In this document: in pieces, positions 3,938 to 24,396 of the stretch
Layout of the letters: each line of letters begins with the position of its first letter
Position numbering within the stretch: the stretch's first letter is position 1
Origin: Chloroflexota bacterium
GTDB lineage: Bacteria > Chloroflexota > Anaerolineae > Anaerolineales > Villigracilaceae
Direction: 5' to 3'
Assembly: GCA_016234495.1 (NCBI GenBank)
Contig: JACRBI010000044.1
Span: 62,001 to 126,000 of the forward strand
DNA length: 64,000 nt
Position numbers and translations under genes: made by a program
Notes under the pieces: model-generated
Told to the model about the DNA's origin: nothing
Databases searched by the model: none
The model's input: only the letters and a program-made list of their open reading frames with translations

Positions 3938-4030
3938 AGAATGTTTCCACTTTTGTTATTCCAAAACTTGAGATTGCCGTGTTTTTAGGCGGTTTAGTTA
4001 TGGTATGCTTGCGCTTTACACGAGGTGAGA

Positions 4031-6418: not shown

Positions 6419-6796
6419 ATGGAAAATGTTCAACCGCTCCTCACCGTGTTCATTTTGGCACATCGCTCACTTTTGTCAGGCGGGATTGCAAGCACCTTAA
6501 GCGAGTACGGTAGTGTATTAAATGTGAGGCTGATTGACAGCGAAACGATAAATATTCCTGAGATTGTTCAGACTGAAGCACCCTCTATTATTATTTTGGA
6601 TGCCGGCGATTCTGATATATGTAAAAAAACACCGGTAACAAAATTACTGGAGTGGGCGCCAAACGCGAAGATCATTCGCCTTGACCTTGCCAGTGACCGC
6701 ATCCGAATCTTTTCAAGCATCGAACTGCAGATTAACCATGCAGTGGATCTGGTGGGTTTGATCCAATCCCTTTCCAGGACAGAGTTGAGTTTATGA
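6419..6796 (+). CDS. Degenerate receiver-like protein without acidic pocket
   Basis: The 125-residue product looks like a NarL-type receiver domain on its own. Its beginning, VFILAHRSLLSGGI, aligns with the usual VLIVDDHPLLRRGI, and IIILDAGDSD lies where the phospho-acceptor strand should be. The two acidic residues that bind magnesium are replaced by Ala and His, so ordinary phosphorylation is unlikely. No output domain is present. It overlaps the next gene, a 10-heme cytochrome, in an ATGA arrangement and is therefore translated with it. It could be a protein-protein adaptor or a phosphorylation-independent sensor for the cytochrome island. The 218-nt gap before it is AT-rich and probably carries the island promoter, but I cannot assign operators. 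Confidence 0.7.
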   Translation: MENVQPLLTVFILAHRSLLSGGIASTLSEYGSVLNVRLIDSETINIPEIVQTEAPSIIILDAGDSDICKKTPVTKLLEWAPNAKIIRLDLASDRIRIFSSIELQINHAVDLVGLIQSLSRTELSL

Positions 6797-8064
6797 AGCA
6801 GTTTCGATTGCTTGTGTTTTTACTGGTTGGGTCTGCCATGCTGGGATGGAGTCTGTTTAATACCACGTACTCCCAGCCTGTTCTTGCACAAGAGCCCACG
6901 CCAACTGTCCCTGCGGTGGAGGCGGTCTTTAATCCCCACGTGACAAACGATTGTCTTGGATGCCATTCAAACCCTGATATGGTGGGGCAGTTTCCAGATG
7001 GCAAGACCATGTCGCTGTATTATGACGCAAGTCTGCATGAAGACTCGTCCCATCCCCAGGGATGCCGTGCCTGCCATGATGCGCAAAAGGAATACCCTCA
7101 CAACGCCGACTCAGGAACAGAGTCTTGCGAAGCGTGTCACGCTCAGGTCTTTGGCGGAGATGGCCAGAATACGACGGTGTTTGAAATCAATGCTTATATT
7201 GATCAACGCGCAGTAAGCATGGAAATTAATAAATCCTGCCAGAAGTGCCATGATGAGAATTTTACTGAAACAACAGACAGCGAACATTCGCGCATTTTGG
7301 CTCGTGGCAACCGTTATGCCCCAATATGCCTCGACTGTCATGGCAGCCATGACATTACATCTCCAAATGAGCCGCGCACAAAGATCGCGGAAATTTGCAG
7401 CAAGTGCCACACCTCGGTTTACACCACGTATGAGAGCAGTGTGCATGGAGCGGCGCTGGAATCTGAATCCAACCCGGATGTGCCGACTTGTGATAATTGT
7501 CATGGCAGCCATAAAGTAACAGGCCCGGCAGATGCGAATTTTAGAGCGGACTCGATCACTTTGTGCGGGAACTGCCATGCAGACAAGGATCTGATGAGTA
7601 AGTATGGCATTTCTACAAATGTGTTCCAGACCTATCTCGATGATTTTCATGGCCGCACAGTGGATTTTTTCCGGCAGACACGTGATACAAGGATCACAAA
7701 AGCAACCTGTTATGACTGCCACGGCATTCATAATATTCAAGCGCCGGATAATGAGCTATCTTCGGTGTATCCCGCCAACCTCCAGCAAACGTGCCAGCAG
7801 TGTCATCCGGATGCTGGCATTACCTTCCCGCAGGCATGGTTAAGCCACTACTCTCCAACCTGGGATGATACGCCCCTATTGTATGCGGTCACCACTTTCT
7901 ATAAATTTTTTGTCCCCACACTTATCGGCGGCTTCCTTGTTTATATTGCGCTTGACGCCCGCCGGCGCGTGGCCGATAAACTAAGGAAGCGCTCCCTTAA
8001 GCTCAAAGCAGTAGTGTCCGAAACAAATAATACAGGAAAGCATGATGAAAAAGCCCAAGGCTGA
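6793..8064 (+). CDS. 10-heme c-type cytochrome, membrane-anchored
   Basis: The 423-residue protein has an N-terminal signal anchor (about 4-25), then ten CXXCH motifs: CLGCH, CRACH, CEACH, CQKCH, CLDCH, CSKCH, CDNCH, CGNCH, CYDCH and CQQCH. Several are followed by Gly-Ser/Ile-His, as in the cytochrome c3/c554-like groups in which distal histidines give bis-His hemes. A C-terminal helix at about 370-392 and a basic tail anchor it, leaving the heme domain outside the membrane. The 3' end overlaps the cytochrome b gene by 23 nt. Together they look like the membrane module of a quinol-cytochrome redox complex. The exact donor and acceptor are not shown by the sequence. Confidence 0.92.
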   Translation: MKQFRLLVFLLVGSAMLGWSLFNTTYSQPVLAQEPTPTVPAVEAVFNPHVTNDCLGCHSNPDMVGQFPDGKTMSLYYDASLHEDSSHPQGCRACHDAQKEYPHNADSGTESCEACHAQVFGGDGQNTTVFEINAYIDQRAVSMEINKSCQKCHDENFTETTDSEHSRILARGNRYAPICLDCHGSHDITSPNEPRTKIAEICSKCHTSVYTTYESSVHGAALESESNPDVPTCDNCHGSHKVTGPADANFRADSITLCGNCHADKDLMSKYGISTNVFQTYLDDFHGRTVDFFRQTRDTRITKATCYDCHGIHNIQAPDNELSSVYPANLQQTCQQCHPDAGITFPQAWLSHYSPTWDDTPLLYAVTTFYKFFVPTLIGGFLVYIALDARRRVADKLRKRSLKLKAVVSETNNTGKHDEKAQG

Positions 8065-8947
8065 GAAGGCTGCTCCTAAAGCGCCTGCCACAATTAAACG
8101 CTACATCTATTACCGCGATGCCGTGGATGCGGTGAAGCGGTTGCGCATTGCGGCTGACGGAACTCGATATGTTGTGCGCTTTTCACGTGGACAGCGCGTT
8201 GAGCATCTTGTCTTGATCTTTTCCTTTACAATTTTGGCGATCACCGGATTGTCACAATCCTTCTACACCAATCCGTTCGGAAATTTGGTTTTGACTCTTC
8301 TGGGCGGGATCGAATCCACGCGCCAGGTGCATCATGTCGCCGCCTTCGTCTTTGGTATTCAGTCGCTTTATCATGTTGCCGTGTTCATTGACGAGGCTTT
8401 CGTTCATCGGCGCATCAGCCAAATGTTCCCTGCCTGGAGCGATGTTACAGATGCAATTCAAATGATCAAGTTCAACCTTGGGCTGGCATTGCATCATCCG
8501 CGCTTTGATCGTTATAACTTTGAAGAAAAAGCCGAGTATTGGGCGTTGGTGTGGGGGACGATCGCAATGGGCGCCACTGGATTAATCCAATGGTTCCCGG
8601 CCCAGTTGACAGAGATACTGCCTGCAGGTTGGATCATCCCCGTCGGCCGCGCGCTTCATCGCTGGGAGGCGATCCTCGCAGTGCTGGCTATCTTGACCTG
8701 GCATTTTTATCACTCACTTATCAAGACTTTAAACTTAAGTATTTTTAATGGCAATATGAGCATGGAGCAGATGGAAGAGGAGCACCCGCTCGAATTGGCT
8801 TATCTTCAGGCTGCCGCCGCTGCCATCAATAATAAACTTTGGCCGGTGGAAATCGAGATTCCGCTTGGCCATTTCCTGGAAGAAGAAACAACCATGGCCG
8901 CAGAAGAGGCCCCCATGGAAAAAAACGCCGAAGGAAGCGCCCAATAA
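8042..8947 (+). CDS. Membrane di-heme cytochrome b (formate dehydrogenase gamma-like)
   Basis: After a basic cytoplasmic N-terminus the 301-residue product has four to five membrane segments with histidines where heme b ligands are expected: VEHLVL in the first helix, RQVHHVAAF and LYHVAVF in the second, and ALHRW with LTWHFYHSL in the last. This pattern fits the cytochrome b561/formate dehydrogenase gamma group that exchanges electrons with the quinone pool. About 60 acidic, Ala-rich residues follow the last helix and are unusual for the family. It overlaps the 10-heme gene before it, and the next gene starts directly at its stop, so all three are one operon. The likely role is quinol oxidation or reduction coupled to the periplasmic hemes. 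Confidence 0.88.
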   Translation: MMKKPKAEKAAPKAPATIKRYIYYRDAVDAVKRLRIAADGTRYVVRFSRGQRVEHLVLIFSFTILAITGLSQSFYTNPFGNLVLTLLGGIESTRQVHHVAAFVFGIQSLYHVAVFIDEAFVHRRISQMFPAWSDVTDAIQMIKFNLGLALHHPRFDRYNFEEKAEYWALVWGTIAMGATGLIQWFPAQLTEILPAGWIIPVGRALHRWEAILAVLAILTWHFYHSLIKTLNLSIFNGNMSMEQMEEEHPLELAYLQAAAAAINNKLWPVEIEIPLGHFLEEETTMAAEEAPMEKNAEGSAQ

Positions 8948-10453
8948 ATGTCCATGATTAAATCCATCCGCGAAAGATTTAAAAAAGGCTGGCCGACGAT
9001 CACCATCGACCTGAGTCAGCGGTCCCACAGAGCAAAGCTGACTTTCGGTATTTTGGGAGTGATCGTTGTCGCTTTAGGGCTGCTGGTCGGAGGTGTACAG
9101 GCTTTCATTTACAGTGAAAGTTCCGAGTTTTGCGGAACAGTTTGTCATTCCATGGATCCGCAATGGGTGCGCTATCAGGCGTCACCGCACGCGAAGGTCG
9201 AATGTGCTCAATGCCATGTCGGTCCTGGAGCGGCCGCTTTCATCCAATCCAAGATCGATGGTACGCGCCAGTTGATCGGAGAAATAACCGGCAATTTTTC
9301 ACGTCCCATCAAGAGCCCGGTACATAACTTGCGCCCGGCGCGTGAAACCTGTGAAGGCTGTCATTCACCGACCACCTTCAAAGACAATATGGTCAAGACC
9401 ATCCGTCATTATGATAATGACAAGGCGAACACCCCGATTCAGACCACTCTGATTTTGAAGATGGGTGGAACGCAGGCTAGTACTGGCGTCATCGGTGATG
9501 GCATTCACTGGCATGTCAGCAGTGAGGTCTATTACATCCCGCTTGATGAGCAACGACAGGTGATTGCCTGGGTTGGTATTAAACAAGCGGATGGTTCCAT
9601 GAAGGAATATTTCGCGCGTGACCTGGTCGGTATGGGACAGACTGCTTTCGTTGAGAAGGCGGAAGCTGAAGGCACGATCCGCAAACTGGACTGCATTGAC
9701 TGCCATAACCGTACCGCGCACTACATCCCTTACCCTGAACAGGCCGTTGACAAAGCCATTAGTAGCGGCTTGATCTCGCCCGATTTGCCTTTTATTCGCT
9801 CGAAGGCTGTTGAAATCCTGAGCGCCGGTTTTGCGAATGAAGGTGAGGCTTTTGCCGCCATAGATGCATTGAATGAATATTACACCGCCCAGCCGATGGC
9901 TTCGGTTTCATCAAGCGATAAGGCAAAAATGGTCTCTGACATGAATTCAACGCTTAAGGAGTTGTACTCCAACTCCAATTTTCCGGAGATGAATTTGACA
10001 TGGGAAACCAACCCCAACAACGAGCGTCATAACCCTTCGCTGGGTTGTTTCCGCTGTCATGATGACAAGCATGTGGTTATCGACGGAACGGGCGGCGGAG
10101 ACACCATCAGCGGAGAATGTAATCTTTGCCACACCGTACCAATTGTCGGCAGAGGCAATGACCTGCTGGTTGAGGCGCCGGTAATTGTCGGCGGCGTGCC
10201 TGAATCTCATGCAAGTTTCCGCTGGACGGTGGACCATCGCTCTGTGACTGAGGCTGAAAAGTTGGAATGCTATAACTGCCACGGCCAGTCCTTCTGCAAC
10301 AACGGCGCCTGCCACAATCTTTCGCACCCCGAAGATATGCTGTATACCCACGCCGATGAATATCGTGATAAAGGTGACCAGGTCTGCTATACCTGCCACC
10401 AAAATATATTTTGCACGCGCTGCCACCCGGCTGGCGTGCTCAAAAACCCATAA
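8948..10453 (+). CDS. NapC/NirT-like multiheme cytochrome c with nonstandard heme motifs
   Basis: A single N-terminal helix (about 28-52) is followed by FCGTVCHSMDP, the position of the first heme in NapC/NirT quinol dehydrogenases, but with three residues between the cysteines. Eight standard motifs follow (CAQCH, CEGCH, CIDCH, CFRCH, CNLCH, CYNCH, CYTCH, CTRCH) and one CX4CH (CNNGACH), making up to ten hemes. A spacer of about 150 residues between the fourth and fifth heme sites contains no heme motif. It begins directly after the cytochrome b stop. The likely role is passing electrons from the membrane module to extracellular cytochromes. Whether CX3CH and CX4CH bind heme here is not certain, although both spacings are known from other bacterial cytochromes. 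Confidence 0.88.
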   Translation: MSMIKSIRERFKKGWPTITIDLSQRSHRAKLTFGILGVIVVALGLLVGGVQAFIYSESSEFCGTVCHSMDPQWVRYQASPHAKVECAQCHVGPGAAAFIQSKIDGTRQLIGEITGNFSRPIKSPVHNLRPARETCEGCHSPTTFKDNMVKTIRHYDNDKANTPIQTTLILKMGGTQASTGVIGDGIHWHVSSEVYYIPLDEQRQVIAWVGIKQADGSMKEYFARDLVGMGQTAFVEKAEAEGTIRKLDCIDCHNRTAHYIPYPEQAVDKAISSGLISPDLPFIRSKAVEILSAGFANEGEAFAAIDALNEYYTAQPMASVSSSDKAKMVSDMNSTLKELYSNSNFPEMNLTWETNPNNERHNPSLGCFRCHDDKHVVIDGTGGGDTISGECNLCHTVPIVGRGNDLLVEAPVIVGGVPESHASFRWTVDHRSVTEAEKLECYNCHGQSFCNNGACHNLSHPEDMLYTHADEYRDKGDQVCYTCHQNIFCTRCHPAGVLKNP

Positions 10454-10472: not shown

Positions 10473-11426
10473 ATGAAAAGTTTATTTAAAACGTTGAACG
10501 ACCGCCTTTTTTCAAGTGCCTATCAGGTGCGGCGTATTATTATTCTGGTTGCGATCTTGATCGTAGCCGGGACGGTCAGTTTTGGCACTTATTATTACTT
10601 TGACCGTTTCGCCAAGACTCAGCCGCTTGTATCAGAGAAGTCAATTGCTGACGCAGAACAGGCCGTGCGCGATAACCCGGGCGACCCGAATGTCCGTTTG
10701 GGCCTGGCTGAAACCTACCTGCTTTACAGCCGCTTTGACGATGCCATTAGTCAGGCCTTGCAGGTGGAAAAGGAATACCCTGATGATGTCCGTGTGGACT
10801 TTATTTTGGGCATCTCCTACGCCAATAATGGCAGCCCCGAAAAGGCGCTCGAACCGCTGCAAAAATTTATTGACAGCCGCAAGGACGAGGAGAATCCCGG
10901 GTTGGACAAGCAATTGCAAGCCGCTTCATATTATTTGGGCGAGAGTTACATGCAGCTCGACCAACCGGAAAAAGCCATCCTGCCTTATGAAAATGCGGTC
11001 AATTGGAGCCAGACCGATGCCGACGCCATGTATAAGCTCGGCAGGGCTTACGCAGGCGTGGATGATTACAACAAAGCGGTCAATATGTATATTGCGGCGA
11101 CAACGTTTGTGCCGAATTATTATGAAGCGTACGAAGATATGGCTGCCGCATACGATATATTAAAGGAACCTGATCTTGCCACTTATGCGCGCGGCATGAT
11201 GGCTTACTCCAAAGAGGATTATCGGAGCGCGCTTGACCTGCTGCTTAAATCTGCCGAAGCCAAGCCTGATTTCCCGCTGACATTTGCCGGCATCGGACGC
11301 ACCTATGAAGCTCTCAAGGATTTGCCCAATGCAAAGATCGCTTATGAGACCGCGCTAAAACTTGACCCGAATAACTTTACTGCTTCCACTGGTATTTTGC
11401 GCGTTGAAGCCGGCATGAAAAAATAA
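10473..11426 (+). CDS. TPR-repeat protein, membrane-anchored
   Basis: The 317-residue product has one N-terminal helix (about 21-43) and then tetratricopeptide repeats from about 60 to 315 (for example NPGDPNVRLGLAETYLLY, AMYKLGRAYAGVDDYNKAV, PLTFAGIGRTYEALKDL). TPR proteins act as scaffolds, and in cytochrome clusters they often help maturation or assembly; that role is inferred here. It has a GGTAAGG ribosome site 20 nt after the NapC-like gene and lies 11 nt before the NHL gene. The orientation of the helix suggests that the repeats are outside the membrane. Confidence 0.88.
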   Translation: MKSLFKTLNDRLFSSAYQVRRIIILVAILIVAGTVSFGTYYYFDRFAKTQPLVSEKSIADAEQAVRDNPGDPNVRLGLAETYLLYSRFDDAISQALQVEKEYPDDVRVDFILGISYANNGSPEKALEPLQKFIDSRKDEENPGLDKQLQAASYYLGESYMQLDQPEKAILPYENAVNWSQTDADAMYKLGRAYAGVDDYNKAVNMYIAATTFVPNYYEAYEDMAAAYDILKEPDLATYARGMMAYSKEDYRSALDLLLKSAEAKPDFPLTFAGIGRTYEALKDLPNAKIAYETALKLDPNNFTASTGILRVEAGMKK

Positions 11427-11437
11427 GGTACCCGAAG

Positions 11438-12655
11438 ATGACAACCCCTGATACCGAACTTGAATCAAAAGACGCTCCCGAACCTGTTGCTTCGCCCGAA
11501 GAAATTCAGGAAGAGAAAAAGCGCCGCAAGCTGTTGTTTTTACTTGTACTTCTCCTCCTGCTTTTGTGCTGCGTGGGCTATTTCTTTGTTAGTTATCTGC
11601 TCAAGCCCAGGCCGATTCCCGATATGCTGCCAGAACCTGTTGCGCAAGCCGTCAGTTTTCCGCCGGTGTACAAACTATCCTTCCCTGCGGATGGTCCTGT
11701 GGGCGTGGCTGTTTCTCCGGATGAGCAGCGTATCTATGTGGTCGAATCGGCTGGCGAGCGTCTTGTCAAGATCTTCGACCGCAACGGTAATTTCGTCAAG
11801 AGCTTTGCGCCTCCCGGCACCACGAAATCAAATCGCAAACCGACCTATATTGCAGTTGACTCAAGTGGGCGTGTCTTTTTGAATGACACCTATAACAATG
11901 TAATCGCTGTTTTCGATGCGGATGGAGTTTTTCTTGACGGTATTATTGCAAAAGATGTCACCCTGAGCGAATTCGTCGCCGGAAAGAATAGCGGCCAGGT
12001 CCCCTCTGGCACACTCTATTACTACAACAACATCACCAAAACAGTGGACTACAAATTACCGAATCAAAGCGCGAAAAGCGTGCCTGGTCCCGATCAATCG
12101 GCATGGTCTCCGCTTGGGCTGCGCTTTGACCAGCAGGGAAATCTGATGATCACAAATATTGTCGGTGGCAAACATGAAGTAATGATATTTCCCGAAGCAA
12201 GCCTCAGCGGCGACTGGCTGAATTTCAACCCGCAAATAAAAGAGTTTGGCGTTGAAGGCAGGGAGGCCGGCCAGTTTTCATTCCCCAATAGCGTGGTCAC
12301 TGACACCCTTGGCAATTTCTATGTCTCTGACGGCAATAATGGACGCATCTCTGCATGGTCTGTTGACATGCAATACAAGACCTTTTTTGGCCTTGGAGCC
12401 ACTGAAGATGGGCTTAACCTGCCGCGCGGTATGTGGATGGACGATAAGAATCACCTGCATGTGGCGGATGCCGTCGGACAGCTTATCCGTGTGTACGATG
12501 TTTCAGGAGAAGAACCTGCCTTCCTCTATAACTTTGGCGATTTCGGCACACTGGAAGGCCAGTTCAACTTTCCGATCGATGTTTGCATGGATTCAACAGG
12601 ACGGGTGTATGTCGCAGACCGCGAAAACAACCGTGTTCAAATATGGTCTTACTAG
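11438..12655 (+). CDS. NHL-repeat beta-propeller protein, membrane-anchored
   Basis: An acidic cytoplasmic segment is followed by a helix rich in leucine (about 31-53). About 330 external residues then form NHL-type blades: GPVGVAVSPDEQRIYVVE, PTYIAVDSSGRVFLNDT, FSFPNSVVTDTLGNFYVSD, LPRGMWMDDKNHLHVAD and FNFPIDVCMDSTGRVYVAD. About six blades are expected. Beta-propellers of this kind are common next to multiheme cytochrome genes and may serve as docking proteins; the sequence gives no catalytic motif. It closes the tight 6419-12655 operon; the next gene lies 144 nt on. Confidence 0.9.
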   Translation: MTTPDTELESKDAPEPVASPEEIQEEKKRRKLLFLLVLLLLLLCCVGYFFVSYLLKPRPIPDMLPEPVAQAVSFPPVYKLSFPADGPVGVAVSPDEQRIYVVESAGERLVKIFDRNGNFVKSFAPPGTTKSNRKPTYIAVDSSGRVFLNDTYNNVIAVFDADGVFLDGIIAKDVTLSEFVAGKNSGQVPSGTLYYYNNITKTVDYKLPNQSAKSVPGPDQSAWSPLGLRFDQQGNLMITNIVGGKHEVMIFPEASLSGDWLNFNPQIKEFGVEGREAGQFSFPNSVVTDTLGNFYVSDGNNGRISAWSVDMQYKTFFGLGATEDGLNLPRGMWMDDKNHLHVADAVGQLIRVYDVSGEEPAFLYNFGDFGTLEGQFNFPIDVCMDSTGRVYVADRENNRVQIWSY

Positions 12656-12799
12656 CGTCGGGCGAAAACAGGCCGGACGCTGTGAAAGATGGGACAACAT
12701 CGTCCCTATTCAACTTTTGGAGGTGAGTTCCGCAAGAAAAGCAATATTACGGACCCTGATTGATCAAGCACTACACTATGTTTAAGGAGAATGTTCGAT

Positions 12800-14290
12800 A
12801 TGAAAAAACTTTTGTTCGCTTTGGTATTGGGCTTATTGCTGGTCTTAGCCCTAGCCACAGTCGCCACGGCTGACAACGGCCCTCACGGCGGCTTTTCTGC
12901 CACTACGGACGCATGCGCAAGCTGCCATCGCGCCCACTCGGCTCAGTTCGGCAGCAATGCGCTGCTCATCATGGACCCGGAAGCCCTCTGCATGTCATGC
13001 CATAACGGCGACGGCGCAGGCACAAACGTCCAGGATGGTGTCTTTACCCAGGCTGGTTCCAATGTCGCCACAGGTGGCGGGGCCAATGCCAAAGTTGAAG
13101 GCGTTGACGGTGCCTCCCTGTTCGGCGGCGGTTTCAGCAATGCGCTCATGGCAACTGCCTGGAGCGGCGCAGCCACAGCCAACCCCGCTTTTAACGCTGT
13201 TTCCAGAACCACCACTTCGACTCACGAAATGGCTGTTGCTGGCACAGTTTGGGGTTCTGGTGCTGTGAATACACCTAACGGTTCGCTGATTCTCGAGTGC
13301 GTCTCCTGCCATACCCCGCACGGCAAAGCTGGTTTCACCAATGCCACCACCCAGACCACAGTTTGTGACCCGCTGCTCGCAGCGGCTTCACCGGCCACCG
13401 AGTCTTGTACGGTTGCGATCGCGTCCTACCGTTTACTGCGCTGGCAGCCTCAGGGTTCTGGCGGCTTCACAGCCCCTGCCACTGCGGTTAACTGGAGCGG
13501 CGGCGTATTCCCAGGAACAGGCGCCAACACTGGTTGGACGGTTCCGGATAACTATGCCACCAACGGCGGCGAATGGTACACAATCGGTACTCAGACCACG
13601 CTTGCCAATTGTGGGCAAACTGGAACATCCGCCTGCGGCGGTCCTTTTGCTGTCGGCGACTATGCTGCCGGCAATATCGAGGTTGTTTACCAGCCCTTGA
13701 GCAGCGTCACCTCTGCTACACAGACCTACCGCCCGGCGGCTATCAACACCGCTTTCTTCTGCGCCCAGTGCCATGACCGCTATTTCAACAACTCCAGCCT
13801 GCGCAATGCGACAGAGACCAGCGTCTACTGCGGTCATCCATTGAATGGAACGACTCCGGCCTTTACACAAACTGCAACCAGCGGTACTCCGGCCTTGCTT
13901 CCGTTCCTGCCTGACGCCGATAATGCTGCCCCGTATATTCACCCGGTTGACCCCACACGCTGTCAGGCGGTGGTCAGCACAACCACTGGGCTCATTACTG
14001 GCTGGGGTGACAATGGCAATAGCGGCGACACCACCTATATGTTCCGCCATGCTTCCGGTGATATCCGGCTCTCAATGGATGCCTCCAAGTCCTCTGGCTT
14101 GGGCTCACAAACACGCGTCAGCCGCAGCTGCGTGGCCTGTCACGTCTCTCACGGCACAACCGCCGCGATGACAACACCGCTTGCCACCAATGCCTCTTTG
14201 GCGGCGGACAGCGCTCTGCTGCGCCTCGACAATCGCTCGATGTGTCTACGCTGTCATGCCGGTGCCGTTGGCTTTACGGTTGCCCCGTAG
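12800..14290 (+). CDS. Secreted 6-heme cytochrome c (doubled CXXCH type)
   Basis: A clear signal peptide (MKKLLFALVLGLLLVLALAT, cut near ATADN) is followed directly by PHGGFSATTDACASCHRAH, and then five more motifs: CMSCH, CVSCH, CAQCH, CVACH and CLRCH. Long Gly/Ala/Thr-rich stretches with few charges separate the pairs, as in exported surface proteins. No second membrane helix is seen, so it is probably released or wall-associated. ATG 12800 is preferred over ATG 12791 because the AAGGAG ribosome site lies 10 nt before it but only 1 nt before the other. The first module is shared almost word for word with the heme region of the giant fusion at 14882-21424. A strong terminator follows. Confidence 0.9.
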   Translation: MKKLLFALVLGLLLVLALATVATADNGPHGGFSATTDACASCHRAHSAQFGSNALLIMDPEALCMSCHNGDGAGTNVQDGVFTQAGSNVATGGGANAKVEGVDGASLFGGGFSNALMATAWSGAATANPAFNAVSRTTTSTHEMAVAGTVWGSGAVNTPNGSLILECVSCHTPHGKAGFTNATTQTTVCDPLLAAASPATESCTVAIASYRLLRWQPQGSGGFTAPATAVNWSGGVFPGTGANTGWTVPDNYATNGGEWYTIGTQTTLANCGQTGTSACGGPFAVGDYAAGNIEVVYQPLSSVTSATQTYRPAAINTAFFCAQCHDRYFNNSSLRNATETSVYCGHPLNGTTPAFTQTATSGTPALLPFLPDADNAAPYIHPVDPTRCQAVVSTTTGLITGWGDNGNSGDTTYMFRHASGDIRLSMDASKSSGLGSQTRVSRSCVACHVSHGTTAAMTTPLATNASLAADSALLRLDNRSMCLRCHAGAVGFTVAP

Positions 14291-14881: not shown

Positions 14882-17800
14882 ATGCCATATACCCGCACTT
14901 CGCTTAAAGAACGCAAGCCTCCATTAATGAAACACCTTGGAAGTTTTTTGACGACTTTTGTGTCAAAAATAAAAACCTTGCCCCAGGTTGTTTTGTTGGT
15001 CATACTTGGTGTCAGCTTGCTCTTTGGCAGTTCGGTGGTAAACGCCGCGGCAGATTCTGACGTTTCGTGGAATTTGATCCGCAAAAGCGATGGGCAGACT
15101 GTTTGTACAATTCAAGTGGCACACACTGGCGAGCCCACGCTCGATGAGATCACACAAACATGCGGAAGCGATCTTGCCACGGGCTGGCAAAATGGCGAAT
15201 ACTCCTTAACACAGGCAGCGCCTACTCCCGCCCCGACCACAATCCCATCTGTACGATCCTTCCTCGAGACTCCCTCCACAGCCGCAGGCTTGCAGACCAA
15301 TCGCCCGTTAGGTTATCTGGCGGGGAAGCTGATCGCCGCCGGGTACGTGGATGTCAGTTCCTGTAATGGAAGCGCCCTGCTTGCGAATGGTTACGCCAAT
15401 CCCTGCGGTTTAACGGCTGCCCAGCCGTACCTCTTCGTTTGGCAGAACCGCTTCGACACTTTAATTTTGAAATCGGCTGTCGAAGAACAGATTCCCGCCA
15501 TCATGTTTAAAAACCTGCTTATTCAGGAAAGCCAGATGTGGCCGCAGGCATCCAGGCACGTGCCGCCGGAGTATGGTCTTGGTCAGCTAACCGAAAACGG
15601 CACCGACACCCTCCTGATGTGGAACAACAACTTTTTCAAGAAGATTTGCAACCAGTCGCTTGAAAAGGAAAAATGTAAAAAAGATTATCTCAGCATTTCC
15701 GCTTCAGAGCGCGCGATCTTGCGCGGCGCCACATTGATCGAAGTGCGCGCTGATTGCAGTAACTGTGCAGGCAAGATTGACATCAAGATTGCTGAAAAAA
15801 GCGTCGCTGTCTTTGGCGCGGCGCTCAAGGCGAACTTCCGCCAGGTTGATCAGATTGCCAAAAATCTGACAGGGCGGGCAGCCGTCAGTCAAATGGAGGC
15901 GGTCGAAGTCTGGAAACTGGCCGCCGCCAACTATCACGCGGGGCCGGGTTGTACCAGCAGCGCCATGCGCGCCACCTTGAAAGACAAAAAGCCCCTGCGC
16001 TGGAAAAACATTTCAAAGAATTTTCAAGCAGGCTGCGAGAGCGCTGTTGATTATGTCGAGCGCATGACCATCACAGACGGCGATGTCTCACTTCCGACTG
16101 CCAGCCAGATCGAATCAGCCGCCCGAGTCATCTTTGGCCTGCCTGACCTGACGCTGACACCCGTTCCCGCATCAGTCACCCCGACAGTTGATCCTGTTTC
16201 GACAGGAACCGCCACCCCGGATGTCTCCGTTTCTGAACAGTTGGAATCTCCCCATGTCCAGGATCAGATTGTGGTTAAGATTGATCCGAAGAAACGTTCA
16301 GAAGTAGAGCAAGTTATCAATGACCTTGGCATCAATTTAACTGATGACAGCACTTCAATCGAACCCCTCGACAGCCTTGTCGTAGATGTGGATGCGTCTC
16401 AACTGACTGCTGTCTTGACAGCCTTGCAAAGTAGTGACGGCGTTGAATTTGCCGAACCTAATTATCTGGTCACGCTAGCTGGCACGCCGAATGATCCCGA
16501 ATTCCCCAATCAACCCAACCTGAACGTGATACAAGTCCCTCAAAGTTGGGATGCTCTGCCGGGTACAGAGGAAGTTCTTGTGGCGGTGATCGATACCGGT
16601 GTGGACATCACCCACCTTGATCTGGTCAATTCTGTTTGGCAGAATCCCGGCGAGACCGGTCTTGATGCCTCTGGCGCGGATAAAAAATCCAACGGCATTG
16701 ACGATGACGGCAATGGCTATGTCGATGACTGGCAAGGCTGGAACATGGTGGCTGGCAGTAATTCTGTCAGCGACGATCAGGGACATGGTACGCACCTGGC
16801 CGGTATCATCGGCGCTCAAACGAATAACGCCATTGGCATTGCCGGGATCGCCCCCAACGCGCGCCTCCTGCCGGTCAAGGTTCTCGATAATAATGGCGTG
16901 GGTTCGCATGCGCAGGCGGCTGAGGGTATTGTTTACGCAACCGATATGGGCGCGCGAATCATCAACCTCGGCTTTGGCGGCATTGGCTCCAGTGACTTGC
17001 TGCAAAATGCGGTTGATTACGCACTTTCTCAAAATGTTCTTGTTGTGGCTGCCGCCGGTAACGGAGGCAATGCAACAACCTTTTATCCGGCGGGATATCC
17101 CGGCGTGATCGCTGTCAGCGCGGTGGATAACGATTTTAATATGGCTCCATTCTCATCTTATGGAAGTCATATCGGCGTTTCTGCGCCGGGCGCTGCAATT
17201 CAATCCACTTTCCCCGGCGGTGGGTACTCGCTTGCTTCTGGCACATCCATGTCGTCGGCGCATGTCTCTGGCGTGGCGGCATTACTTGCGAGTAAACCTG
17301 AGTTTGCCGATGGCAATGCTCTGAGGTCTGCTTTACTCAACAGCGCGCTTGACCTCGGAGTGTCAGGCGTTGATGAACAGTTTGGTTATGGCGTAGTGCA
17401 GGCTTTCAATGCGCTTGGCTATAGCGGCCCGCTTCTTCCACCTCCCACTCCGGTGGTTATCCCTGTTGACCCTGGGGCAGGTACGGTCAACATGCTCGGC
17501 GATGCGCCTAATGCAAACATCGGCGGCTATCTATTAAGTTGCCCGGCAGTTTCATCCTTTACACAGCAAACAGGCGCAGGAGTTATACCGGTTACCGCGA
17601 TCAATGTAGATAACGCGGTCTCCGGCCCCATCCCGCTTGGCTTTGATTTTTGGTATATGGGCACACGCTACACTCAGGTCTGGGTCAGTTCAAACGGCTG
17701 GATTTCATTTAATGATCCTGCCGGCAACACCTGCACTACAGATGCAGATTCATGCCCGTCCAATGACCTTGATAATAACAGCAACACCACCGCAGCCGGA

Positions 17801-20800
17801 CGCCCCTATCTGGCTCCGCTTTGGGATAATCTAAGCGGCGTGGATGGAACTGCATCCTACACAGTCTTGAGCACTGCTCCCAGCCGGATATTCCGGTTCG
17901 AGTGGTGGGGCTGGCGTTGGACTTCCACCAACCCGGATGCGATGCGCTTCCGCCTTGAATTATATGAAAGCACAGGCGTAATCCGTTTTTGGTATGACCA
18001 GGGAGCCGGCGCTTTGAACGCCGCATCTGCTTCCATTGGTTTTACGGGTACCCCCAACAATGTTTTCCGCTCTGCTCAAACGATTTCAGCCTGCCCGTTA
18101 TTCAATCAGGCTGAAGTGGCAACCCTGGCGACAAAACCAACCGACGGCAGGATCTGGACATTCAGTCCGCCTCAGAATCCAACCGCTCCGACCAACTTAA
18201 GTTTCTCCAACGTGACAAGCACTGCAATGACCCTAAACTGGACGGATAATTCCATTAATGAAAAAGGCTTTGCTGTTTTCAGGTCGACTGATAACGTGAA
18301 CTTTAATTTCGCGGGTCAATCATTGGCGGATGTTAACAGTTACTCTGCCACGGGGTTGACCGCTGGCACCCCGTATTATTGGCGGGTTTATGCCGTTACC
18401 GAAGGAGCGTTAAGTGCGGTGTTGGCTGGTCAGCAATCAACCAATACGCTGCCGACGATCAATGTTGCCGCACCGGCTAATAACTCCACATTTTTACAGG
18501 GAGCGCCGATTACTTTCACTGCCACCGCCACCGACCCGGAAGATGGAAATATTTCTGCCAGCCTGCTGTGGAATTCAAGCATTGACGGCTTGATCGGGAC
18601 CGGCGGAACATTTATAAAGAACAACCTGAGCATGGGCGTTCATACTATTACTGTCACAGCTACAGACGCCAATAATGCCGTCATTACCTCTGTGTTTACC
18701 ATTACCATAACCGATGCCAGCGGGAACACGCCGCCTGTGCTTACCATAGGCAGCCCAGCAAATGACACATTTTTTGTGCAGGGAACTCTGATTAGTTTTG
18801 GCGGTTCGGCGATCGATGCGCAGGATGGCGACCTGAGCGCGAACATTCAATGGAGTTCAAATGTAGCTGGAGCGCTTGGCACCGGCTCAAGTGTTTCGAC
18901 CAGCGCACTTGCCATTGGCACTCATCGAATTACCGCCAGCGTCACCGATGCGGGCGGTTTGGTCGGCTCGACCACCATCCGAGTTACGATCACTGATGCG
19001 GCTGGCAACGCACCGCCTGCCGTCGCGATTTCATCGCCCAGTAATGGAGACTCATTCCCCCAGGGTTCTGACATACCCTTTATTGGTCAGGCATTTGTCC
19101 CGCTCAATGCCGATGTTAGTTCGGTCATCCAGTGGACTTCAAGCCGGGATGGAGCAATTGGTTCTGGAGCCAGTTTTGGAATCACGAGCTTAAGTATCGG
19201 CACACATACGATCACCGCCAGCGCAACAGACTCCGCCGGACGAGTAGGCACCGATACCATCACGATCACGATTGTTTCCACTGGCGCAAACCCGCACGGT
19301 GGTTTCTCTGCCATCACTGATAAATGCGCCATTTGCCATCGTGACCATAGTGCGCAAAGCAATCCATATCTGGTTGGCTCCAATTTAAATGGCAACGCAT
19401 ATTGCCTGAGTTGCCACAATAATGGAACCACGATTGTTTCGACGCACTCGAACAAGGATTGGACAGGTCCGCGCGTAGAAGCGCCCTTTGAATTGGGGTG
19501 TACACAGTGCCATGACCCGCACGGCAGTGTCAATTTATCTTCCATACGTTCTGAATTACGCGTTGTCAGCGATGGTTCTGTGACGACCGGCCCTGTTCTT
19601 TTTACCTCAAGAACAGGCACGAATTCATTTGATGATGGCGTGAGCGCAACAGCCAACCGCTTGTGTGTGGCCTGTCATTTAAATCCCAGCAACCCCGGTC
19701 TGCCGATGACGAGTCATCCCGGCGGGGAAAACCATAATGACGGATCGAATTACAGCGGCATGGATTGCGTCGCCTGCCATAAACACAGCGCAGATTCTTC
19801 TTCTGCAACAAGCGATGGTTTTATGGCAGCCGGATGCCGCGCCTGCCACTCGACCGTTCAGGACCTCGGGCGTGGAACTCCCCGTCGACAGATCGTTGGC
19901 GCTGGCAGTGATTTCGCGCGCACCTCGCATCATGTCAGCGGAAATGATGCAATTACTGATGCCGATTGCCAGGTCTGCCACGAGATGACCCAGCATAAGC
20001 AGGGCAGCGTGCGCCTCTTCAACGTTGACTCTCCCTCAACCACAGTCTACGTTCTTGATTATGTGCTTAACGCAACTGATGATAAAGCGGATTATGAAAA
20101 CTTCTGTAAAGCCTGTCACGACGGGAATGGTCAGGCAGGAAACCAGATTCCTTTCAGCGATAAGAAATTGATACCTGCGCTCGATTCAACCTTGTGGACT
20201 GCGGCAATGCACAACTCAGTGGTCAGCACGTTCAGCGGCTCCTGCCTGGATTGCCACGACAGCGGCCATGGGTCGAACAAGACAAAACTTCTTTCCCCCT
20301 GGAACTTTGTCAGTGATGGCAACCCTGTTGACCCCATGCGGCAGGAAGAGCGTTTCTGCTATTACTGCCACACCACCAGCGGCGTGGGCACGAATGTACA
20401 GTCAGCCTTTAGCAGCTACACCAATACAGCCACAAGGTTCTTCAAACATAACCTAGACCAGACCAGCGGTCCGCATACTGCGGATGAAGTATTCGGTACA
20501 CGATTCGGCGGTACAAACCGGCACGTAGAATGTGGTGACTGCCACGGACCGCATGAAGATAATTCCGGTACAGCGCTGGCTCCTGTAACAAAACCCCAGA
20601 ACATCGGTGCGACCGGGGTTGACCCGGTTTTCAATGGAGCAGGCGCGCCCGCTCGATTTAATTTCATAAGCCAGCCTGCCAATGAATATCAGGTATGTTT
20701 TAAGTGCCATTCCAGTTATACGACACTGCCCACCTATGTTCCGGATGGCTATGGGTGTGCAACACCTGCCTGTACGGGCGGGCGGACATTTGTCCCCGAT

Positions 20801-21424
20801 GGTTTACGCAAGCTTACCAGCACAAACGCTGACCAAATAAAAGATACCCGCGACCTCGCCTCAGCCTTTAATCCTGCAAATGCAAGTTTCCATCCCCTGC
20901 TGGCGGCAGGTAAGAATACCAACATCCCTGCTGGAAGTTTTATAGCTGGCTGGGATTCCTCCAGTCGTGTTTATTGCTCCGATTGTCACACCAATGCCTC
21001 TCCGGTTACAGGCGCAAACGGCACGCATGCTTCACCGCTTTTACATATTCTGGATGGCTCTGCTTCAGGCAGCAGCAATTACTCGACCTATAGTTTTGGA
21101 AATGAGCCTGTAGTTCCACCCACAGAAATATGTTTCAAGTGCCATGATTACAATACATATGTGGACGGGACCGCTTCAAATACGCTCTTCGATAATGGAA
21201 ATAATCTGCATGCCGAACACATGTCAGGCGGGTTCACCATAACCACCTGCTACACCTGTCATAATTCGCACGGCAGCGCACAGGTTCATTTGATCAATTT
21301 CGACACCAATATCGTGTCTTTCCCGGGCGGCCAAAACAGCCTGACCGGTTTCATCCCGTCTGCAAATGGCGGAACTTGTGCCCTCGCCTGTCATGGCACA
21401 GATCATAATGAGACATATCCTTAA
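14882..21424 (+). CDS. Giant fusion: lytic transglycosylase-like + subtilisin + Ig-like + 16-heme cytochrome
   Basis: The 2180-residue protein has a signal anchor (about 36-58). A lysozyme/SLT-like region follows at about 165-400, with the putative catalytic Glu in LLIQESQMWP, then YGLGQLT and AANYHAGPGC. A fervidolysin-like propeptide is at 455-535 and a subtilisin domain at 550-850 with all three catalytic residues: Asp in VAVIDTGVD, His in GHGTHLAG and Ser in GTSMSSAHVSG. A beta-rich region (870-1095), a fibronectin III domain (1100-1186) and three Ig-like repeats (1189-1469) come next. The C-terminus (1470-2180) carries 15 CXXCH motifs and one CX3CH (CALACH). The first heme module, PHGGFSAITDKCAICHRDH, matches the secreted cytochrome upstream. 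ATG 14927 is an alternative start; neither start has a good ribosome site. The reading frame is unbroken throughout. I infer a wall-spanning electron conduit; I know of no described protein with this architecture. Confidence 0.88.
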   Translation: MPYTRTSLKERKPPLMKHLGSFLTTFVSKIKTLPQVVLLVILGVSLLFGSSVVNAAADSDVSWNLIRKSDGQTVCTIQVAHTGEPTLDEITQTCGSDLATGWQNGEYSLTQAAPTPAPTTIPSVRSFLETPSTAAGLQTNRPLGYLAGKLIAAGYVDVSSCNGSALLANGYANPCGLTAAQPYLFVWQNRFDTLILKSAVEEQIPAIMFKNLLIQESQMWPQASRHVPPEYGLGQLTENGTDTLLMWNNNFFKKICNQSLEKEKCKKDYLSISASERAILRGATLIEVRADCSNCAGKIDIKIAEKSVAVFGAALKANFRQVDQIAKNLTGRAAVSQMEAVEVWKLAAANYHAGPGCTSSAMRATLKDKKPLRWKNISKNFQAGCESAVDYVERMTITDGDVSLPTASQIESAARVIFGLPDLTLTPVPASVTPTVDPVSTGTATPDVSVSEQLESPHVQDQIVVKIDPKKRSEVEQVINDLGINLTDDSTSIEPLDSLVVDVDASQLTAVLTALQSSDGVEFAEPNYLVTLAGTPNDPEFPNQPNLNVIQVPQSWDALPGTEEVLVAVIDTGVDITHLDLVNSVWQNPGETGLDASGADKKSNGIDDDGNGYVDDWQGWNMVAGSNSVSDDQGHGTHLAGIIGAQTNNAIGIAGIAPNARLLPVKVLDNNGVGSHAQAAEGIVYATDMGARIINLGFGGIGSSDLLQNAVDYALSQNVLVVAAAGNGGNATTFYPAGYPGVIAVSAVDNDFNMAPFSSYGSHIGVSAPGAAIQSTFPGGGYSLASGTSMSSAHVSGVAALLASKPEFADGNALRSALLNSALDLGVSGVDEQFGYGVVQAFNALGYSGPLLPPPTPVVIPVDPGAGTVNMLGDAPNANIGGYLLSCPAVSSFTQQTGAGVIPVTAINVDNAVSGPIPLGFDFWYMGTRYTQVWVSSNGWISFNDPAGNTCTTDADSCPSNDLDNNSNTTAAGRPYLAPLWDNLSGVDGTASYTVLSTAPSRIFRFEWWGWRWTSTNPDAMRFRLELYESTGVIRFWYDQGAGALNAASASIGFTGTPNNVFRSAQTISACPLFNQAEVATLATKPTDGRIWTFSPPQNPTAPTNLSFSNVTSTAMTLNWTDNSINEKGFAVFRSTDNVNFNFAGQSLADVNSYSATGLTAGTPYYWRVYAVTEGALSAVLAGQQSTNTLPTINVAAPANNSTFLQGAPITFTATATDPEDGNISASLLWNSSIDGLIGTGGTFIKNNLSMGVHTITVTATDANNAVITSVFTITITDASGNTPPVLTIGSPANDTFFVQGTLISFGGSAIDAQDGDLSANIQWSSNVAGALGTGSSVSTSALAIGTHRITASVTDAGGLVGSTTIRVTITDAAGNAPPAVAISSPSNGDSFPQGSDIPFIGQAFVPLNADVSSVIQWTSSRDGAIGSGASFGITSLSIGTHTITASATDSAGRVGTDTITITIVSTGANPHGGFSAITDKCAICHRDHSAQSNPYLVGSNLNGNAYCLSCHNNGTTIVSTHSNKDWTGPRVEAPFELGCTQCHDPHGSVNLSSIRSELRVVSDGSVTTGPVLFTSRTGTNSFDDGVSATANRLCVACHLNPSNPGLPMTSHPGGENHNDGSNYSGMDCVACHKHSADSSSATSDGFMAAGCRACHSTVQDLGRGTPRRQIVGAGSDFARTSHHVSGNDAITDADCQVCHEMTQHKQGSVRLFNVDSPSTTVYVLDYVLNATDDKADYENFCKACHDGNGQAGNQIPFSDKKLIPALDSTLWTAAMHNSVVSTFSGSCLDCHDSGHGSNKTKLLSPWNFVSDGNPVDPMRQEERFCYYCHTTSGVGTNVQSAFSSYTNTATRFFKHNLDQTSGPHTADEVFGTRFGGTNRHVECGDCHGPHEDNSGTALAPVTKPQNIGATGVDPVFNGAGAPARFNFISQPANEYQVCFKCHSSYTTLPTYVPDGYGCATPACTGGRTFVPDGLRKLTSTNADQIKDTRDLASAFNPANASFHPLLAAGKNTNIPAGSFIAGWDSSSRVYCSDCHTNASPVTGANGTHASPLLHILDGSASGSSNYSTYSFGNEPVVPPTEICFKCHDYNTYVDGTASNTLFDNGNNLHAEHMSGGFTITTCYTCHNSHGSAQVHLINFDTNIVSFPGGQNSLTGFIPSANGGTCALACHGTDHNETYP

Positions 21425-21902: not shown

Positions 21903-22724
21903 ATGAAAAAATTGATCGATTTCTGGAATAAAGATATTATCAACAAACTCATTATCATCATTTCAATGATGTTGGTAATGGGTGTATTTGCATTCATCTT
22001 TATGATCTTCAATATGCCTGAAGGGAAATCGCTGCGTGAAGCAATTTCTGAATTCATGCCATCCCCCTCTACGTCGGCTCCTGCTGACCTTGCTGCTGCT
22101 CCGTCCGTCACCCCAACCGACCTGCCGTTCAACCTGACCGTACCGCCCACAGAAGGCGCATTCAACGCCAACCCGTCCACGCCTGACCCGGCTTTGGCGG
22201 CTGCCTCTCCAACCTCCACCCCGGAATTGCTGGTGATTCCCACGCTTGGAGTAGATCAATTTACATTGACTCCGCTTCCAAGTGCTGCCCCTATTGCCTC
22301 CCTCAATACCGATTGCATTCCCAAGGCCACTTCGCAGGCTGGCAAGGCTGTCTCCATTCTGGAGGGAAATACCATCAAAGTGTTGATCGATGGCCTCGTG
22401 TACGTTGTCCGCTATATTGGCGTAGACGTCCCCACAGATGCAAAGCTTGCAGAAAAAGCCAGGCTGCAAAATGCTGAGCTTATTTTCGGCAAGGAGATCA
22501 CGCTCATTGCAGACCAATCAGACAAGGATGCAAACGGACGATTGTTGCGCTATGTAATGGTGGGGGATATATTTGTCAACCTTGACCTCATCTCGCAGGG
22601 CTTTGGCTCAGCAGCCGATACTCCGCCTGATTACGCCTGCGCTCAAACCTTCCAATTGGCAGAGAAGTCCGCCGGTGGTGCTGTGACTCCAGCTGTGGAT
22701 GGTACAGTTACCGTAACACCCTGA
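21903..22724 (+). CDS. Membrane-anchored thermonuclease (SNase)-like protein
   Basis: An N-terminal helix (about 14-38) is followed by a Pro/Ala/Thr/Ser-rich linker of about 90 residues and then an SNase-like domain (about 138-255). Features recognised: VSILEGNTIKVLIDG (usually DGDTI), VRYIGVDVP with the conserved Arg, Glu in the following helix (LAEKARLQNAEL), and DANGRLLRYVMV with the second conserved Arg. The usual Asp of DGDT is replaced by Glu-Gly-Asn, and TPE by VPT, so calcium binding and catalysis may be changed. The linker looks like a wall-spanning stalk, placing the domain outside the cell. Extracellular DNA cleavage for nutrients or biofilm turnover is a family-based guess. Confidence 0.75.
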   Translation: MKKLIDFWNKDIINKLIIIISMMLVMGVFAFIFMIFNMPEGKSLREAISEFMPSPSTSAPADLAAAPSVTPTDLPFNLTVPPTEGAFNANPSTPDPALAAASPTSTPELLVIPTLGVDQFTLTPLPSAAPIASLNTDCIPKATSQAGKAVSILEGNTIKVLIDGLVYVVRYIGVDVPTDAKLAEKARLQNAELIFGKEITLIADQSDKDANGRLLRYVMVGDIFVNLDLISQGFGSAADTPPDYACAQTFQLAEKSAGGAVTPAVDGTVTVTP

Positions 22725-23307: not shown

Positions 23308-24396
23308 ATGAAAATAAACCTCTTTCGCAAAATCGCTCTAAATAAAAAAGAGCAGACAAAAATGCTTTCCCGTTACGTACGGATTGTGACCGGGCTCATC
23401 ATCATTCTGGCTGTTTTGGGCGTGGTACTGATCGTAGGCAGAACGCAGACGGCGACTCTGGCGCAGGTACCCACACCCACAGTGCCGCCTGAAAAAGCCA
23501 CAGCAGATAATTGCGATGCCTGCCATGCCGATGTACATGAGCTATGGCACAAAGGCGGACACGGAGATGCCCGCGCAGAAGCTGCGCTGAGGCAACAGGA
23601 TAACTGTGTGGCCTGCCACAAGGAAATTCCAGATAGCAGTATGCCAGACCCAACCAAAATAAATACCGATTTCACAGGATTCTGGGCAGACCAAGGCAGA
23701 CCCAGCAATTGTTTACAGTGCCATGTGACAGGCTACGATCCTGCCAGCGGAACCTGGAAAACAGATGGCATCACTTGCGAAGCGTGTCACAGCCCCATCC
23801 CACCCAACCATCCGGACGATGGTATGCCGGTGGAAAAATCCACAGACCTATGCCGTACCTGTCATACAGATGCCCGTTTTGGATGGGATGCCTGGGATCA
23901 AAGCGCGCACTCTCAAAATGACATCACCTGTTCGAACTGCCATAACCCGCATTCGACCTCTCTTAAGCCGACAGATGATTCGGCGACAGATTCTTCATCC
24001 CTGTGCGAGAATTGCCATAAGGACATGGGCGAGCATAAAGCGCACATTCAGCATGTTGAGACCGGCGCAACCTGTGTCATGTGCCATATTGGACCACCAA
24101 AAGGCGATGATGATTTCCACCAGGTTCCAGACCACGACTTTAAAGCAAAGCTGGATGCCTGCAATAGCTGTCACGCCGATCAAATGCACGGTGACGGCAA
24201 ACCGGTTTCCATTCCGATTGAGCAGGATATTACAGCACCGATAGCGGATGCGCCAGCCGCGGTTGTATCTTCTGTGCCCAAACAGGCGAGTCCGTATGGA
24301 TATGTTGGCCTTGCCACAGTCTTCGGAGTGGGCGGTGGTTTCCTCTGGCGTAAATTAGCGAAACGCCGCTCACAAAGCAAGGCGGATGCAAAATAA
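23308..24396 (+). CDS. 9-heme c-type cytochrome, anchored at both ends
   Basis: The 362-residue protein has an N-terminal helix (about 24-46) and nine CXXCH motifs: CDACH, CVACH, CLQCH, CEACH, CRTCH, CSNCH, CENCH, CVMCH and CNSCH. A Pro/Ala-rich linker and a C-terminal helix (about 331-350, YGYVGLATVFGVGGGFLW) with a basic tail follow. The spacing is like the c554/OTR-type cytochromes, with extra histidines to serve as distal ligands. An internal HNPHST/HKDMGEHKAHIQHVE segment is rich in histidine. A TTTGGAGGA ribosome site precedes the ATG. It closes the cytochrome island and is followed by a terminator. The electron partner is unknown; a periplasmic or cell-surface relay is likely. Confidence 0.92.
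   Translation: MKINLFRKIALNKKEQTKMLSRYVRIVTGLIIILAVLGVVLIVGRTQTATLAQVPTPTVPPEKATADNCDACHADVHELWHKGGHGDARAEAALRQQDNCVACHKEIPDSSMPDPTKINTDFTGFWADQGRPSNCLQCHVTGYDPASGTWKTDGITCEACHSPIPPNHPDDGMPVEKSTDLCRTCHTDARFGWDAWDQSAHSQNDITCSNCHNPHSTSLKPTDDSATDSSSLCENCHKDMGEHKAHIQHVETGATCVMCHIGPPKGDDDFHQVPDHDFKAKLDACNSCHADQMHGDGKPVSIPIEQDITAPIADAPAAVVSSVPKQASPYGYVGLATVFGVGGGFLWRKLAKRRSQSKADAK

Follow-up and report, generated by a model that had tools for sequence, protein, structure and literature searches.

A single polypeptide joining a lytic-transglycosylase-like domain, a subtilisin, and a 16-heme cytochrome in a Chloroflexota bacterium: a candidate extracellular electron conduit

Architecture of the fusion protein

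The subject of this report is one very long gene in a 64,000-nucleotide stretch of contig JACRBI010000044.1 (assembly GCA_016234495.1), from a Chloroflexota bacterium of the order Anaerolineales; this whole stretch is referred to as the window, and the loci with which it is compared carry L numbers. Positions 14882–21424 of the plus strand form a single frame of 2180 amino acids with no internal stop, as a previous reading made from the letters alone (the sequence-only reading) had stated. The layout of the encoded chain, hereafter the fusion, is confirmed: a lytic transglycosylase (LT) domain, a subtilisin of the S8 type with its propeptide, a domain unmatched in Pfam, a fibronectin type III (FN3) domain, immunoglobulin-like (Ig-like) repeats, and 16 hemes. 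The parts named in the sequence-only reading, including the complete Asp-His-Ser triad and propeptide of the protease, the FN3 domain, and three Ig-like repeats, all stand, and to its list must be added the domain at residues 870–1096, which it had left unnamed.

All of these features lie on the plus strand. The chain opens with a signal-peptide-like region (residues 1–56, positions 14882–15049), recognized by eye as a hydrophobic segment ending in VNAAADSD; a Met at residue 16 is an alternative possible start, and the relatives of the fusion likewise open with a hydrophobic segment. The LT (SLT/GH23-like) domain (residues 121–400, positions 15242–16081) is separated by a Pro/Thr-rich linker from the S8 propeptide, which is Fervidolysin N-pro-like (residues 450–527, positions 16229–16462; PF22148, 2.1e-7), and this is followed by the S8 catalytic domain (residues 564–837, positions 16571–17392; PF00082, 1.7e-57). 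Next comes the domain for which the Pfam scan gave no match (residues 870–1096, positions 17489–18169); BLAST finds it in L038, L039, L041, L208, and L209 and gives no match to it in L094 and L095. The region running from this domain to the FN3 domain (positions 17489–18469, residues ~887–1195) also has relatives in proteins of Bacteroidota, Ignavibacteria, and Acidobacteria.

The FN3 domain itself (residues 1102–1180, positions 18185–18421; PF00041, fn3, 1.9e-9) leads into a stalk of Ig-like/PKD repeats (residues 1185–1468, positions 18434–19285). Three repeats can be counted by eye, Pfam finds two passing stretches each of PKD and Big_7 from about residue 1191 onward, and the number of repeats varies among relatives. 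No S-layer model appears among the Pfam matches of the fusion up to E 0.1. The remainder of the chain is the heme part, made of octad A (residues 1470–1780, positions 19289–20221), which starts with NPHGGFSAITDKCAICH and holds eight CXXCH motifs, and octad B (residues 1781–2180, positions 20222–21421), with seven CXXCH motifs and one CXXXCH.

The two enzyme domains

The LT domain shows E216 followed by Ser (the ES motif), GLGQL at residues 232–236, and YHAG at residues 351–354, the latter within YHAGPG. The Glu of the ES motif, which by the motif we take to be the catalytic residue, is kept in all 23 aligned LT domains, ten of them fused; the Ser is replaced by Thr in L041 and L211. Against the Pfam model SLT (PF01464), the domain of the fusion itself reaches an E-value of 0.024 and 14.6 bits, under the 21.3-bit cut-off, and 18 of 19 homologous LT domains match the same model at E up to 1, the best of them at 6.2e-7. 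A model of the domain built with AlphaFold2 has a pLDDT of 93, and when it was submitted to Foldseek, rows 1–41 were all lytic transglycosylases. A second structure aligner placed MltF (Z 14.6), MltC (13.7), MltE (13.4), and Slt (12.4) at the top, to be read with the knowledge that Z values below about 13 are common for helical models and that the LT fold is helical; the superposition on MltF has an rmsd of 2.3 over 157 of 280 residues. With SLT matches in the homologues and both structure comparisons led by lytic transglycosylases, the domain is predicted to have a lytic transglycosylase fold, in line with what had been proposed from the letters. It has in common with MltF, MltC, MltE, and Slt the predicted fold and the ES / G-x-G / Y-x-A-G motifs, with only 8–19% identity over the aligned cores, and unlike them it is joined to a protease and a cytochrome. 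In a comparison of 7 versus 12 rows, a common origin for the fused LT domains is supported at 98/97.

The protease domain scores 195.4 bits against Peptidase_S8, for which the cut-off is 21.8, and its triad consists of D571, H635, and S789. In an alignment of 15 heme-fused S8 copies, which leaves out L096 because its S8 domain is cut, Asp, His, and Ser are all kept in every copy and the oxyanion Asn in 13. The best solved-structure match of the S8 profile is thermitase (2.1e-84); the triad is intact as in thermitase-type subtilisins, whereas the heme-fused domains group apart from the free thermitase-type subtilisins with which they were compared. In the tree of 15 heme-fused versus 10 chosen free domains they make up one side of a branch (100/98), and an earlier tree of 11 versus 14 rows gave the same split at 97/97. 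A survey of the phylum with the S8 profile showed that subtilisins are common, and nothing further.

The heme part and its junction

The sequence-only reading had described a 16-heme array, and the motif count holds, with 15 CXXCH and one CXXXCH at residues 1482–2171; the array is, however, not a uniform one and consists of two octads, of which octad B is found without octad A in other proteins. Inside residues 1479–2174, Pfam matches the Paired_CXXCH and MtrC-F II/IV heme models. Among the six complete 16-heme copies (L096, with its diverged second octad, is omitted from this count, and the truncated L145 from that of octad B), all 16 heme-motif His residues are invariant, as are 22 of 24 other His residues, a number that would be enough for bis-His ligation.

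The heme profile A2 finds 7tfs_A (“Cytochrome c”) in the PDB weakly, at 7e-6 and over two short stretches; this entry is the OmcE filament. The octad B profile finds photosynthetic reaction-center cytochromes at E 0.02 and worse. We put both sets of matches down to shared heme-motif patterns.

More can be said about where the heme part begins. Of 136 proteins with at least five CXXCH, 79 have a PHxx[FYW] motif no more than 16 residues ahead of their first heme; some genes are counted twice in these figures (L040 and L191 overlap, and L208 and L209 are near-identical). By eye, the free cytochromes of the operons described below have a stretch like GPHGGYTATTDACAGCHRAHTA directly after their signal-like segment, and in the fusions the same PHxx(F/Y) motif comes right behind the final Ig-like repeat or a linker of Pro and Thr. 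Because this start follows the signal in the free proteins and the stalk in the fused ones, the heme part resembles a complete free cytochrome in its mature form, in front of which the enzymes and the stalk have been placed. Such an arrangement matches what a cleavable delivery module would be expected to look like, and any cleavage is to be understood as our inference. As a separate observation, L131:7875-15326 holds a frame of 2484 residues with 47 CXXCH and two CXXXCH motifs, in which octad-A-like stretches are repeated.

Distribution among related genomes

Nine complete LT-S8-heme fusions were found, with lengths counted from stop to stop. Six of them have 16 hemes, namely that of the window and those of L038 (2267 amino acids), L039 (2050), L041 (2133), L094 (1736), and L095 (2157), and three have eight, in L210 (1517), L211 (1600), and L212 (1699). 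Further fusions (L040/L191, L096, L208, and L209) run off the ends of their contigs. Other copies, 36–81% identical to that of the window, keep the LT, S8, and heme parts together with the catalytic residues; the prospect that the fusion would be missing from all related genomes, which would have spoken against it, is thereby removed. Since copies recur with their catalytic residues kept, the fusion is neither an artefact nor a matter of chance. At wider range, the heme part is matched in 43 of 396 genomes of the class, and the octad-B profile in 18 of 400 genomes of the phylum, several of these matches being partial.

A shorter design, an S8 domain with eight hemes and no detected LT domain, occurs in three other families (L132, L133, and L145, the last cut in the hemes), and the S8 propeptide is matched in all three. 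In the earlier S8 tree these forms fall outside the LT-S8-16-heme forms, which hold together at 99/96. In the larger tree they stand, with the LT-S8-8-heme form L210, in no resolved order at the base, and L211 and L212, which have eight hemes, fall with the group of the window at 93/93. Given where L210, L211, and L212 are placed in the larger tree, octad A appears to have been acquired, dropped, or swapped on more than one occasion.

Genomic context

The fusion lies among cytochrome genes, and gene order and CXXCH counts support an operon of cytochromes here. Upstream, all on the plus strand, are a cytochrome with 10 CXXCH motifs (6793–8064), a cytochrome b561 / Ni_hydr_CYTB membrane protein (8042–8947; PF01292, 3.7e-14), which is likely to be the quinol side of the system, a NapC/NrfH-like cytochrome with eight CXXCH (8948–10453; PF03264, 3.5e-13), a TPR protein (10473–11426), an NHL protein (11438–12655; PF01436, 3.1e-25), and a free cytochrome with six CXXCH (12791–14290), which carries DNGPHGGFSATTDACASCH after its signal-like segment. 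A search of this 6-heme neighbor against the PDB at E up to 1 returned 23 weak matches, none labeled OmcS. Downstream, also on the plus strand, follow an SNase-like protein with a hydrophobic N-terminus (21903–22724; PF00565, 2.3e-6) and a cytochrome with nine CXXCH and a hydrophobic C-terminal stretch (23308–24396). In L038, L039, L094, L095, L096, L208, and L209 the fusion is likewise followed immediately by an SNase-like gene, and L097 and L098 have one close to the heme end.

Genomes across the class repeat a block of TPR, NHL, and 6-heme genes that ends in a large cytochrome, and the fusion occupies this terminal slot. LT-S8 fusions fill it in L038, L039, L191, L094, L095, and L210–L212; S8-8-heme proteins in L132 and L133; heme-only 16-heme proteins in L137, L139, and L140; and octad-B proteins in L135, L144, L150, and L213, whose N-terminal part is unmatched in L135, L144, and L150. 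The N-terminal parts of the S8-free octad-B proteins of L134, L135, L144, L150, and L141 gave no Pfam match at all. In L215, an LT gene stands as a separate gene inside a multiheme cluster.

Two regulatory genes accompany the fusion, a LuxR-type regulator and a sensor kinase (4025–5482). Two CXXCH motifs are present in the kinase and likewise in its counterparts in L038, L094, and L095; the kinase is possibly a heme-based redox sensor. Promoter-like sites numbered 15, versus 9.2 (sd 2.7) in shuffled sequences, and terminator-like sites 12, versus 10.0 (sd 3.1), from which no conclusion is drawn. Elsewhere, the window also contains an open frame of 2560 residues at 45147–52829.

Envelope and cytochrome assembly

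The cell had been supposed to be a monoderm, and the genome agrees with this: the outer-membrane assembly protein Omp85 gave no match in it (98% complete), in comparison with matches in 7 of 14 control genomes, and peptidoglycan transpeptidases gave six. Cytochrome c assembly is represented by two matches. On this evidence, with Omp85 undetected and transpeptidases present, the barrier that an exported cytochrome has to pass is the peptidoglycan wall. No porin was seen among the scanned neighboring genes, MtrB itself not having been searched for.

The same genome encodes, in locus L194 (C37:58727-69400), a free LT paralogue of 574 amino acids, 38% identical over 272 residues to the fused LT domain. 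Its gene ends a cytochrome c maturation (Ccm) cluster in which all genes are on the same strand, in the order CcmE, CcmF, CcmH, a thioredoxin-like protein, a zinc-ribbon protein, a cytochrome c, an ABC ATPase, CcmB, a CcmC-like protein, and then LT. Fourteen loci were chosen that have an LT match on a long contig, and 11 of them (L194–L197 and L201–L207), all of the same genus, show the order CcmF/CcmH homologues, CcmC-like, LT; in the ten of these other than L194, CcmE is outside the stretches covered, and none of the genes lying beyond LT in the genome of the window recurs. In L198, L199, and L200, from other families, LT is not beside Ccm genes. The LT family is therefore tied to cytochrome assembly independently of the fusion, within one genus only.

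Relation to known systems

The nearest parallel is the OmcZ/OzpA pair of Geobacter sulfurreducens, an octaheme filament cytochrome and a subtilisin-like protease (PMC9473688, PMC11208441). Both systems bring a subtilisin-like protease and Ig-like domains together with a cytochrome of many hemes (PMC9473688, PMC11208441), and both have an 8-heme module with one noncanonical heme motif (PMC11208441, PMC9473688). The fusion differs in holding protease, Ig-like part, and hemes in one chain with an LT domain ahead of them, and in having its Ig-like part before the hemes. The CX14CH motif of Geobacter OmcZ is absent from residues 1462–2180, where CXXXCH is found instead, and homologues may use other spacings. 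When the heme profiles were run against the PDB at E up to 10, the OmcZ structure 7lq5 (PMC11208441) was not among the matches, its presence in the library being unconfirmed. On this reading the fusion would work like OmcZ/OzpA in one chain; because a sequence match to OmcZ was not seen and CX14CH is missing, membership in that family is not claimed.

The MtrC-MtrF II/IV model, named for the outer-surface cytochromes MtrC, MtrF, and OmcA belong with, gives the fusion 62.6 bits against a cut-off of 30, and it also scores, above or below the cut-off, on three other multiheme proteins of the same scan; the fusion differs from those conduits in its setting, where Omp85 is undetected in the genome and no porin is among the scanned neighbors. 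ANME-2 and Methanoperedenaceae have cytochromes joined to S-layer domains (PMC7327174), which resemble the fusion in joining a multiheme cytochrome to an envelope-barrier domain, whereas here the barrier is peptidoglycan, the added domains are enzymes, and there is no S-layer match. Genomes of Anaerolineales from bioanodes, of the same order as the host of the fusion, also encode large multiheme cytochromes, with no porin-cytochrome complex identified (PMC7399161); in the main text of that paper the words peptidase, subtil-, and NHL are all missing. In sulfate reducers, the porin-based conduits OetABI and OmcKL and putative filament cytochromes have been described (PMC10553843).

Searches of the titles and abstract openings of open-license PMC papers found no one-chain design of LT, protease, and multiheme cytochrome. 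The suggestion of a new type of conduit in the sequence-only reading has to be toned down, as protease-matured cytochromes (OmcZ/OzpA) and envelope-fused ones (the S-layer fusions) are already known.

Interpretation

We propose, at about even odds, that the fusion serves as the last, extracellular cytochrome in an operon for electron export, in a bacterium with no detected outer membrane, and that it brings its own wall-opening and processing enzymes with it. In such a scheme, the chain would be exported and loaded with heme outside the membrane, as its signal-like region, its heme motifs, and the Ccm cluster indicate. The LT domain would then cut the glycan strands, or hold on to them, at the point where the protein passes through the wall, a role suggested by its fold resemblance, its catalytic residues, and its Ccm-linked relative. 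The S8 domain, once freed of its propeptide, would cut in cis within the stalk or linker and release the heme part, which would begin at what is the mature start of the free cytochromes. Electrons would pass from the quinol pool through the b561/NapC-like, 10-heme, and 6-heme proteins, a path drawn from the observed order of the genes, to the 16-heme part and on to minerals, partners, or electrodes. A stronger version is possible but distinctly more doubtful: a self-installing conduit for one-membrane bacteria, which cuts its own passage through peptidoglycan and, by subsequent self-cleavage, deposits outside the cell a heme array that is free or forms filaments, its LT domain having been recruited from transglycosylases dedicated to cytochrome c assembly.

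Other explanations have been weighed against this proposal. The S8 domain may act in trans like OzpA, which works on the separate OmcZ chain (PMC9473688), and trim neighboring 6-heme cytochromes for assembly outside the cell, the hemes of the fusion serving as anchor or electrical contact. Related 6-heme cytochromes do adjoin the fusions, as they do other terminal cytochromes, but by eye they have no pro-region, PHxx(F/Y) following directly on the signal-like segment, and they are also present in L137, L139, L140, and L144, where the stretches examined contain no S8; we regard action in trans as unlikely. That the LT and S8 domains are binding or structural modules (for glycan binding, or as a stalk) and not enzymes would fit the replacement of the Asn after the AAxG motif, the oxyanion position, in 2 of 15 copies (L132 and L145). 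The intact S8 triads and LT Glu residues, and the propeptide matched in every S8-8-heme copy, are hard to square with loss of catalysis, and the chances of this explanation are accordingly small.

Smaller still are those of a surface-bound scavenger digesting the wall and protein of cell debris, with hemes for attachment or nonrespiratory redox chemistry. It is true that free subtilisins are common in these lineages, as are free relatives of the LT domain, yet the neighbors of the fusion are quinol-side, 10-heme, NHL, TPR, and 6-heme proteins, its 16 hemes are conserved, and the same slot is taken by heme-only cytochromes. Finally, the titled sources holding the fusion are metagenome-assembled genomes, which speaks for an assembly join or frame artefact, but the domain order agrees across contigs from several projects of different names and across further genomes, at 36–81% identity to the window, and we consider such an artefact next to impossible.

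Several observations weigh against the proposal of a cytochrome with its own wall-opening and processing enzymes. With a gap of 591 bases upstream of it, the fusion gene may or may not be co-transcribed with its neighbors. Distribution is patchy: when the three best candidates of each genome are scored, at least 8 of 57 genomes of the same genus have the fusion or its heme part, and with E up to 1e-70 and two candidates scored per genome, S8-heme fusions are in 9 of 301 genomes of the order. S8-8-heme fusions do without an LT domain and many terminal cytochromes of this slot lack both enzymes, from which it follows that neither enzyme is required for such an operon. The Foldseek E-values of the LT model are weak (best 3.3e-3), and the helical nature of the fold tempers the Z values as well; with 10 versus 13 rows, support for a common origin of these fused domains is only 61/52. 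For the hemes, AlphaFold2 run on profile A2 (7 rows) gave an unusable model with a mean pLDDT of 27.

The passage of electrons through peptidoglycan in wall-bearing bacteria without an outer membrane is poorly understood. The Ccm-linked LT suggests that the coupling of wall remodeling to cytochrome assembly is more general in this genus, and, if the proposal is true, a cytochrome that comes equipped with enzymes for cutting the wall and for processing would offer a testable answer to how electrons cross the wall.

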